The notes under the pieces are model-generated. The model saw nothing but the letters and a program-made list of their open reading frames with translations, searched no databases and was not told the DNA's origin. From Candidatus Bathyarchaeota archaeon (GTDB lineage: Archaea > Thermoproteota > Bathyarchaeia > TCS64), in the NCBI GenBank assembly GCA_026014875.1, contig JAOZHO010000018.1, positions 1 to 63,388 of the forward strand: a DNA stretch of 63,388 bases, in the 5' to 3' direction. Positions 59,116 through 62,976 of this stretch are shown here, in pieces; position 1 is the first letter of the stretch; each line of letters starts with the position of its first letter. Position numbers and translations under genes: made by a program.

Positions 59116-60093
59116 GTGAAACGCGGGTTCCCAGATGGGACTCCAAAACTAGCGAAGAAAGGGAGTAGCGGCATGATCAAAAGTGAGAAAATCACGGTTT
59201 GCCCAGAGTGCGGCAACAACGATCTGATCCGGGACTACGAGGCTGGGGAGCTTGTCTGCGAGGGTTGTGGCATGGTTGTCTCATCCGAACTCTTTTCCTA
59301 CGGCCCAGAATGGAGAGCCTTCAACCTCGAGCAACGGGAGAAAAGAACCAGGGTGGGCGCGCCCCTGACTTGGACGATCCACGACAAGGGCCTCTCCACC
59401 ATCATCGACTGGACGGGAAGGGACATCTACGGCCGGGGGCTCAAGCCCGAGCAGAGGGCTCAGGCGTATCGCCTCAGGAAGTGGAACCGCCGGTCTAAGG
59501 TATCGGGGGCCAGCGAGAGGAACCTCGCGTACGCCCTCTCGGAGCTAACCAAGATAGCGTACAAGCTCAATCTACCCAAGAACGTCCTCGAGACGGCCTC
59601 GGTGATCTACCGCCAGGTCGTCAGGAAACGGCTCATCAGAGGCCGCTCCATCCAGGGAGTGGCCGCCGCCTCGATCTACATGGCATGCCGCCAATGCAAT
59701 GTCATCCGCACCCTCGAGGAGGTGGGAAAAGCCGCGAACATCACGAAGAAAGAGAGCGGCCGTAACTACAGATTCCTTCTCCGAAAGCTAGAGACCCGAG
59801 TTCCCCCGGTCGAGGCGAAGAGCTACGTCTCCAAATTCGTGAACCAACTCACGCTCTCGGGGAACGTCGAGAACCTAGCGATGCAGATCTTGGAACAGGC
59901 TGTGGCGATGAGGCTCACGAGTGGTAGAGGGCCGGCGGGGATCGCAGCCGCCGCAACCTATATCGCCAGTCTCCTCACAAACGAGCGCCGCACCCAGGGC
60001 GAGATCGCCAGGGGCGCCCAAGTCACAGAGGTCACCATCAGGAACAGGTACAAGGAGCTCACCCAAAAGCTCTCAATCGAGATGGACCTCTGA
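59116..60093 (+). CDS. tfb: Transcription initiation factor TFB
   Basis: A 325-residue TFIIB homologue that recruits RNA polymerase to TBP-bound promoters. N-terminal zinc ribbon: VCPECGNNDLIRDYEAGELVCEGCG. The B-finger/linker region contains SSELFSYGPEWRAFNLEQREKRTRVGAPLT. Two cyclin repeats follow (about 125-225 and 230-320). It starts at GTG 59116 or ATG 59173. The GCGCGC-flanked leader suggests regulated expression. Confidence 0.96.
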   Translation: MKRGFPDGTPKLAKKGSSGMIKSEKITVCPECGNNDLIRDYEAGELVCEGCGMVVSSELFSYGPEWRAFNLEQREKRTRVGAPLTWTIHDKGLSTIIDWTGRDIYGRGLKPEQRAQAYRLRKWNRRSKVSGASERNLAYALSELTKIAYKLNLPKNVLETASVIYRQVVRKRLIRGRSIQGVAAASIYMACRQCNVIRTLEEVGKAANITKKESGRNYRFLLRKLETRVPPVEAKSYVSKFVNQLTLSGNVENLAMQILEQAVAMRLTSGRGPAGIAAAATYIASLLTNERRTQGEIARGAQVTEVTIRNRYKELTQKLSIEMDL

Positions 60094-60303: not shown

Positions 60304-61782
60304 ATGTTCACATTAAACAGGTGTTGGATGAAGCTCCAGTCGTTTGTCCCAAGGGATATCCGCTTATCCGATGATTTCGTTGGATTTCCATTGATACATC
60401 AGGACCTGTCGGACATTGTGAAATATCTTGGTCACTTGATCAGGATAACCCGGGAAGGAAAAGACGATTATAAGAGAATGCTGATAGCCGCTGAGAGTGG
60501 CTCGTTGTTTCTCGGTCATACGGGTGCGGGTAAGACTCATGCTCTTCACTGCGTGGTGAATGAGGCCATCAAACTGGATTATCATGCGGTTGATGGCAGT
60601 TTGATGCTGGGGAAGACGGTGATTGATCCCCAGGATGTTCGGGAGTTTTTTGATTCATGCAGGGTGATGGCGGAGGAGAAACCGCTTCTGATCGTGTATG
60701 ACGATGCTAGGCAGCTTCTTGGTTCGAGGCGTCGAGGGATGCATTCTGGGCCTGGGGACAACAATCAGGAGACGAGGCCCATGCTGTCGGAGTTCAGGAG
60801 GCAGATCGACGGGCTTCAATATTATGTTAACCCCGTCTACATCATCGTGACCTCGGCCACGCATATCTGGAACATCGACCGGCAGATAGCCAGACGTTTC
60901 TCGAGATACATCAGATTCCCGAGGCCCGAAGACGAGAGCAGGAAGTCCTTATTCGACTATTACCTCGACAAATTCGGTCATGAACCTGGAAGCATAGACG
61001 TGGAGACGCTGTCCTTCTTGACTGATGGTGTGCTCGCGGGTAAGATCGAGGAGATCGTGTCGAAGGCGAGTTACAAGGCGGATGTGGCCGGGGGAGAGCT
61101 GACCAACAAGCACCTGGTGATGGAAGTCATAAGATATCTTCAGGGCCCGCCGTCTGACACCTACCTCACCCATGAGAAAAAGATAGACCTCGCATACCAC
61201 GAGGCTGGGGGACATACTTTACCCGCCTACGCCGTGGGATTGGAGCCCATCCTGGTGACCATTACGCCGTCGGCTGATGGTACGTATGGTAAAAACTTCC
61301 ACAGGCACTCGGAGACTGTGCCTCCCGCGTCGGCGAAGTTCTTTTTCGCTAATGTGATCACGGGTATGGGGAGCACGGCGGTATATCAGGAGACGGGGAA
61401 GAGCAGGGAGGAGGGGAGGATGGGTGATTTGACCCGTTCATCGAAATCCGCCCTCGACCTGTATGCTTTGAAGAATCCCCTGGTTAAGATGAGTCTTGGG
61501 AGCGATGACACCTATCTTTCTCTGGGCCTGTTCAGCGAGGAGAACAGGATGGAGATCGAGGGAGAGATACAGAAGATCAAGGACGCCGCACTGGCGATCG
61601 CAAGGGACATCATAAGGAACTACAGAGACGAGATAACCACGTTCGCTGAGGAGCATCTGCTTATGAGAGAGATAATGGTGAGAAGCGAGATACTCCAGGT
61701 CTTGGGAGAACTCGGCGTAGAGCCCGGGCATCACTATGAGCAGATGTGTGGCACGCTCAGAGAACTGGGATACCCGGTTTAA
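60304..61782 (+). CDS. Soluble FtsH-like AAA+ protein with atypical M41-type domain
   Basis: A 492-residue protein; translation may instead begin at ATG 60328. The AAA+ module has Walker A GHTGAGKT (71-78), Walker B LLIVYDD (128-134, Asp-Asp rather than Asp-Glu) and an Arg-rich sensor segment RQIARRFSRYIRFPRP (about 193-208). From about 290 an M41-like domain follows: the FtsH AYHEAGH motif appears as AYHEAGGHTLPAY (H299-E300-A-G-G-H304, one extra Gly), and the family's third ligand position is Asp375 in MGDLTRSS. The N-terminal membrane helices of FtsH are absent. AAA-driven unfoldase or protease; activity uncertain. Confidence 0.85.
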   Translation: MFTLNRCWMKLQSFVPRDIRLSDDFVGFPLIHQDLSDIVKYLGHLIRITREGKDDYKRMLIAAESGSLFLGHTGAGKTHALHCVVNEAIKLDYHAVDGSLMLGKTVIDPQDVREFFDSCRVMAEEKPLLIVYDDARQLLGSRRRGMHSGPGDNNQETRPMLSEFRRQIDGLQYYVNPVYIIVTSATHIWNIDRQIARRFSRYIRFPRPEDESRKSLFDYYLDKFGHEPGSIDVETLSFLTDGVLAGKIEEIVSKASYKADVAGGELTNKHLVMEVIRYLQGPPSDTYLTHEKKIDLAYHEAGGHTLPAYAVGLEPILVTITPSADGTYGKNFHRHSETVPPASAKFFFANVITGMGSTAVYQETGKSREEGRMGDLTRSSKSALDLYALKNPLVKMSLGSDDTYLSLGLFSEENRMEIEGEIQKIKDAALAIARDIIRNYRDEITTFAEEHLLMREIMVRSEILQVLGELGVEPGHHYEQMCGTLRELGYPV

Positions 61783-61831
61783 ACTGGAGAACTATGCCTG
61801 CAATCATGTCTTAACTGCGGGGGACTTGGCA

Positions 61832-62164
61832 ATGGGGACCATTCTAACAATTGGATACGGCGGAAAGAAACCGGCGGATTTCTTCTCCGAGATCGAGGAA
61901 ATGGCCCCCGATTACATAGTGGATGTCAGAGAAAATCCCCATAGAGCATATCTTGGATGTTATACGAAAGCTCATCTCATAAAGAGATTCGACACTCAAT
62001 ATGTTTGGATAAAAGACCTTGGCAATCGCACTCGGACACTCCCCCCTCAATTGGTAAATGAGGAAGCGGGGATGGCCAAGCTCGAGGAACTGTGTGAAGG
62101 CACTAATAGAATCGTGCTCCTTTGTGCGGAAAAAATGAAGAACGATGCCATAGAAGCTATGTAA
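61832..62164 (+). CDS. Short DUF488-family protein
   Basis: About 110 residues from ATG 61832: MGTILTIGYGGKKPADFFSEIEEM, then IVDVRENPHRAYLGCYTKAHL, LGNRTRTLPP and a C-terminal RIVLLCAEKMKNDAIEAM. The usual DUF488 ending LLCaE...CHR is cut off: the Cys-Glu part is present but the following CHR is missing, so the protein is truncated by about 25 residues. It lies 49 bases after the AAA+/M41-like gene on the same strand. Role unknown. Confidence 0.75.
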   Translation: MGTILTIGYGGKKPADFFSEIEEMAPDYIVDVRENPHRAYLGCYTKAHLIKRFDTQYVWIKDLGNRTRTLPPQLVNEEAGMAKLEELCEGTNRIVLLCAEKMKNDAIEAM

Positions 62165-62229: not shown

Positions 62230-62319
62230 CCGGGCTCGGTGGGATTCGAACCCGACCACCCGTGGAGACATCCCCCCCTCTATCCCAATCACACCAAGGT
62301 CAGACTAAATGGAACCCAA
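62230..62319 (-). other. tRNA-like element 1
   Basis: On the minus strand, TTGGGTTC at 62319-62312 can pair with GAGCCCGG at 62237-62230 (8 bp with G-U), like an acceptor stem. Near its 3' side is GGTcGGG-TTCGAAT-CCCACC, a T-arm with a bulge. A normal D-arm, U33 anticodon loop or 5-bp T-stem cannot be built. A shared GAGGGGGGGATGTCTCCA core links it to elements 2 and 3. It may be a tRNA pseudogene or tRNA-derived repeat. Confidence 0.45.
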
Positions 62320-62910: not shown

Positions 62911-62976
62911 GGGAGATATCTCCACATGCGGCAGGGCTCGAATCCCCCCGAGCCCGCTAACCCTAAATTGGGCTCG
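62911..62976 (+). other. tRNA-like element 2 with flanking hairpin
   Basis: On the plus strand, GGGAGATATCTCCACATGCG then GCAGGGCTCGAATCCCCCCG AGCCCGC aligns with elements 1 and 3 (TCTCCA, GGG-YTCGART-CCC). CGAGCCC (62949-62955) pairs perfectly with GGGCTCG (62970-62976) across a 14-base loop, so an acceptor-like strand lies downstream of the T-arm-like part. tRNA-like but not a standard tRNA. Confidence 0.45.

Follow-up and report, generated by a model that had tools for sequence, protein, structure and literature searches.

Peptidases of family M41 are described by their HExxH motif. A preliminary description of the window (the 63,388-nucleotide contig JAOZHO010000018.1 of a Candidatus Bathyarchaeota archaeon, analyzed here over its full length) drew attention to an open reading frame at 60304–61782 whose product appeared to join an AAA+ module to an M41-like region with the motif HEAGGH, one residue longer than expected. 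The locus therefore raises the question of whether this protein is a dead protease that acts as a soluble unfoldase or a peptidase with a variant metal site. The reading we prefer, to which we assign a probability of about 0.5, is that it is a soluble AAA+ metallopeptidase with the FtsH/M41 fold, an active variant metal site and an AAA gate that does not thread its substrates; from sequence, conservation and fold we infer metal binding and catalysis.

The open reading frame is present and intact. The ATG at 60328 (M9 of the frame as originally read) is its most probable true start, since the seven closest sequences start there, a stop codon directly precedes this Met in the two closest homologues, and the sequence GGTG lies just 5′ of the ATG. 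The gene so delimited (60328–61782, plus strand) would encode 484 amino acids, and all residue numbers given here are counted from this Met, such that H291, E292, H296 and D367 correspond to the residues called H299, E300, H304 and D375 previously and the motif glycines are G294 and G295. The protein occurs in 10 of the 257 genomes of the class Bathyarchaeia, with nine full-length copies spread over three families. Pfam matches the window protein to AAA (4e-12, residues 60–198) and to Peptidase_M41 (PF01434; 2e-6, residues 280–457, 61165–61698 on the plus strand), the latter at 28.2 bits, just below the 29.9 cutoff; both domains are matched in all nine homologues, and the PF01434 score lies above the cutoff in seven of the ten genomes. 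No transmembrane stretch was detected in the protein (best 19-residue Kyte-Doolittle mean ≤1.4), and its N terminus is the AAA N-terminal motif, with no FtsH-type transmembrane anchor before it. The AAA+ module, the M41 region and the missing membrane anchor of the preliminary description thus all stand.

Comparison of the family with seven FtsH sequences by hhalign gave an alignment of 435 columns (E 2.8e-26) that runs through both halves of the protein. Structure prediction from the nine homologues alone reached a pLDDT of 48, and the M41 half was not predicted without FtsH rows; when the alignment was extended by 20 FtsH sequences taken from viral contigs, the monomer model reached a pLDDT of 87.4 and a pTM of 0.81, values to be read with the bias toward the FtsH fold that these added sequences introduce. 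Foldseek searches with this model matched FtsH, Yme1 and AFG3L2 over the full length, the best matches having TM scores of 0.66–0.72 (YME1 0.72, apo-FtsH 0.70). The FtsH/M41 fold proposed earlier is thus supported by a confident model as well as by profile alignment. In the model the zinc motif lies in a predicted helix (residues 282–302) followed by a beta hairpin (306–326), and D367 lies near the start of another helix (361–382).

The motif HEAGGH (residues 291–296, 61198–61215, plus strand) takes the form HE(A/S/F)GGH in 9/9 full-length homologues, at identities down to 55% and across the three families. The extra Gly is therefore conserved, the outcome that the preliminary description had named as support, and HExxH is absent throughout all nine proteins. 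The codons that specify HExGGH vary among the homologues. A sequencing or frameshift error was rejected as the source of the extra Gly, the additional codon being in frame and present in all nine; judged from the sequences, HExGGH is a real conserved variant. Between the second His and the M41 Asp there are exactly 70 residues in every homologue, compared with the x74 of Escherichia coli FtsH (PMC11266112). This Asp, D367, is the last residue of EEGRMGD (residues 361–367, 61408–61428, plus strand); it is invariant among the nine homologues, holds the position of the third ligand of M41, and is the proposed third metal ligand here. Invariant columns make up 78 of the 209 in the M41 domain (37%), and given this rate the chance that all six site columns would be invariant is approximately 0.002. 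An extra His that is invariant in the nine homologues, H325 (61300–61302, plus strand), is one of several newly invariant residues of the domain, the others being E355, E361, E362, and R364. Profile alignment places the additional motif residue as a one-residue insertion relative to FtsH: hhalign introduces one gap within the motif, which leaves the second His paired with the second His of FtsH. MAFFT shifts the motif by one instead, and because the two placements differ, the extra residue can be assigned to more than one position within HExGGH.

The AAA half departs from FtsH at a different set of residues. Walker A is kept (GHTGAGKT at residues 63–70, 60514–60537; G(R/K/H)TG(A/T)GKT in the family), as are the arginines of the second region of homology (IDRQIARRFSR, residues 183–193, 60874–60906), from which the PG of the FtsH sequence RPGRFD is missing, as it is in CdvC. 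No homologue carries an aromatic residue in the region of pore loop 1 (residues 91–101, 60598–60630): the Phe of FtsH FVG, the residue that grips the substrate in FtsH (PMC9020784), is replaced by Thr, Ala, Lys, or Glu, and the Gly is deleted. In Walker B (LLIVYDD, residues 120–126, 60685–60705; all four elements are on the plus strand) the catalytic Glu is replaced by Asp126 in 9/9 homologues, and the sensor-1 Asn is not conserved, being Thr, Ala or Glu in the family. Hence neither the aromatic FVG pore loop nor the Walker B Asp-Glu pair of FtsH is found here. These changes in pore loop, Walker B and sensor 1 make nucleotide-dependent assembly or gating of the peptidase a more likely function of the AAA module than threading of folded proteins. 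PADLOC matches to IetA and TRIP13 cover the AAA module only.

In the mechanism that we propose, H291, H296 and D367 would bind a metal at the putative site and E292 would activate water as the general base. The inserted Gly would be accommodated in an extra-wide turn of the helix, of the kind found in the HExxGH motif of dipeptidyl peptidase III (DPP III). There, the HELLGH motif binds zinc through an unusual helical turn of approximately five residues, mutation of either His or of the distal Glu abolishes both zinc binding and activity, and a form shortened by one residue is still active with Zn, Co or Ni (PMC3268031). The AAA module, with its nucleotide-binding and arginine-finger residues, would assemble and gate the peptidase on nucleotide, and the substrates would probably be cytosolic proteins or peptides that are flexible or have already unfolded. 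Among the three closest copies, dN/dS is 0.064–0.126 for the M41 half and 0.14–0.15 for the AAA half; the M41 half is under purifying selection no weaker than that on the AAA half, which by itself is no proof of catalysis. Counting against activity, the FtsH-conserved GGRxAE and the Ala that follows the second His have been lost around the site. We nevertheless favor an active metal site similar to that of DPP III over a dead protease working as a soluble unfoldase, because every metal residue is kept and it is the unfolding parts of the AAA module that are altered. Of the two readings left side by side at the outset, the variant zinc site thus gains from the conserved Gly and the dead soluble unfoldase is the less supported. 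Only tentatively, and at rather less than even odds, would we call the family an active HExGGH M41 metallopeptidase that is independent of DPP III and carries a CdvC-like, non-threading nucleotide gate.

The main rival is a pseudo-protease: zinc binding would be disrupted by the extra Gly, and the AAA module would act as a soluble unfoldase or remodeller, in the manner of the chloroplast FtsHi proteins. The FtsHi proteins show that M41 proteins can exist without proteolytic function (PMC8197885), Foldseek also matched Ycf2-FtsHi complexes, and a second archaeal AAA-M41-like protein, in genome G539, has lost the motif (HTAAE). FtsHi proteins, however, lose both the His and the Asp (PMC11266112), whereas the His, Glu and Asp residues and their spacing are invariant here, and what has changed is precisely what an unfoldase requires: the pore loop, the Walker B Glu and the sensor-1 Asn. 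We consider a pseudo-protease unlikely on these grounds.

Slightly less probable again is a repurposed metal site with a non-proteolytic role, be it metal sensing, a structural function or other hydrolytic or oxidative chemistry, in which H325 or E361/E362 would serve as extra ligands. The newly invariant residues of the M41 domain and the loss of GGRxAE are consistent with such a change of use, and HELLGH is also the iron site of aromatic amino-acid hydroxylases (PMC3268031); against it, the Glu that acts as general base in M41 does not vary among the homologues, and the M41 domain retains its usual layout.

A further alternative concerns origin, and is compatible with the metallopeptidase reading: rather than descending from FtsH as a whole, the protein may be a chimera of a CdvC/Vps4-like archaeal AAA module and an M41 domain, with ESCRT-like or membrane-remodelling partners as its targets. 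Consistent with this notion, the AAA half scores higher against CdvC than against FtsH both in the window protein (66.8 versus 28.7 bits) and in the most divergent copy (54.4 versus 41.7 bits), its second region of homology lacks PG as that of CdvC does, and nine of the ten copies are in genomes without a CdvC match (Fisher 3e-6), an association strongly confounded by clade. The hhalign alignment to FtsH, however, spans both halves, the protein has no MIT-like N-terminal region, and the AAA tree does not resolve the family's position, leaving it at the end of a very long branch (4.3 changes per column). We regard a chimeric origin as improbable. A mobile or viral origin was dismissed: neither the protein nor the family profile picked up a relative among viral contigs, and phage and plasmid collections yielded ordinary FtsH only.

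A separate search for M41 across the 257 class genomes returned exactly the same ten genomes and no ordinary FtsH; the family is thus the only M41 detected in these genomes. FtsH has been described as absent from archaea (PMC4343526). Among 398 genomes sampled across the phylum there was one further credible M41 hit, the G539 protein; a weak match in a coiled-coil-like open reading frame of genome G474 was taken as chance. The distribution of the family is patchy, and the copy in genome G013 (89% identity to that of the window) is nearer to the copies of another genus than to those of its own, which together hint at gene transfer or mis-binning. This patchiness is all that speaks for the accessory element suggested in the preliminary description; against it stand the lack of shared neighbors and of relatives in viral contigs, and the ordinary FtsH that was all phages and plasmids yielded. 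The CdvC ATPase is found at E ≤ 1e-90 in 204 of the 257 class genomes and in none of the listed genomes of genera g1, g3, g4, g5, and g6 (the window genome's family). Among 80 FtsH homologues from viral contigs, HEGGH ranks second among the zinc motifs, with 32 occurrences against 42 for the commonest form, HEAGH, both being HExxH. Literature searches for FtsH with HEXXXH returned only one unrelated degradome survey, and those for FtsH with Bathyarchaeota returned nothing.

Two genomes of a single genus share a neighbor; beyond these, no gene family recurs beside the AAA-M41 gene. The short DUF488 gene reported downstream (61736–62164) was confirmed (28.0 bits, cutoff 22.2) and its open reading frame overlaps the 3′ end of the AAA-M41 gene; DUF488 was not found beside the other copies, and we rejected it as an operon partner given the lack of recurring neighbors. 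On the other side, the AAA-M41 gene is adjoined by a multi-copy gene for a TFB transcription factor (59116–60093), of which the genome carries two further copies, on contigs C50 and C10, that are 94% and 91% identical over approximately 1.1 kb. The repeats described as tRNA-like contain no tRNA according to ARAGORN and Rfam; what they do contain is a 46-nt inverted repeat (62231–62276 and 62911–62956) that resembles a tRNA T arm (gattcgaaccc/gctcgaatccc) and recurs at many places in genomes of the same family. The last ~147 bases of the contig (63242–63388) are repeated, at up to 100% identity, at the ends of or inside contigs C1, C21, C38, and C50, and represent a dispersed repeat that breaks the assembly.

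If the metallopeptidase reading is true, the family would be the first soluble AAA-M41 enzyme of a non-FtsH type, and this among archaea, which have been described as lacking FtsH. A conserved AAA-M41 protein with HExGGH would offer a natural test of how far a catalytic zinc helix tolerates one inserted residue, and of whether nucleotide can regulate an AAA-protease that does not thread its substrate. Proteins of this kind could be overlooked, since searches with the curated HExxH motif miss the family and its Pfam scores fall on both sides of the cutoff.

Among known systems, FtsH, Yme1 and AFG3L2 (MEROPS M41, TIGR01241, PF01434) share with the window protein an AAA+ module followed by M41 over the whole length, the order His, Glu, His, Asp and, by the model, the fold; they differ in having HExxH where this protein has HExGGH, as well as membrane segments, the FVG aromatic, a Walker B Glu, the sensor-1 Asn and PG, and the TIGR01241 score here is 65.9 bits, far under the 600-bit cutoff. 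CdvC/Vps4 is the best match of the AAA half and likewise lacks PG, but it has no C-terminal M41 domain, and the window protein differs further in its non-aromatic pore loop and in having no N-terminal region before the AAA module; the CdvC model NF041006 scores 66 bits, over AAA only, against a cutoff of 650. The FtsHi pseudo-proteases similarly combine a divergent M41 domain with an AAA module, yet have lost the zinc residues that are all kept here. The G539 protein (L155:517–1956) is also archaeal, has no obvious membrane segment and is FtsH-like over both halves (TIGR01241 7e-26), but is only ~25% alike, has HTAAE for its zinc motif and is a single copy in 81 genomes of its own class; its Walker B is altered (VWED). 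DPP III (M49, HELLGH) has the same His-His spacing, with a Gly before the second His, in an unrelated fold without AAA and with a Glu ligand after 52 residues instead of an Asp after 70; the window protein shares the M49 motif spacing, but its Asp ligand, its FtsH fold and the absence of an M49 Pfam match set it apart from that family. The tubulin peptidases TMCP1/2 also carry HExxxH (PMC10499314).
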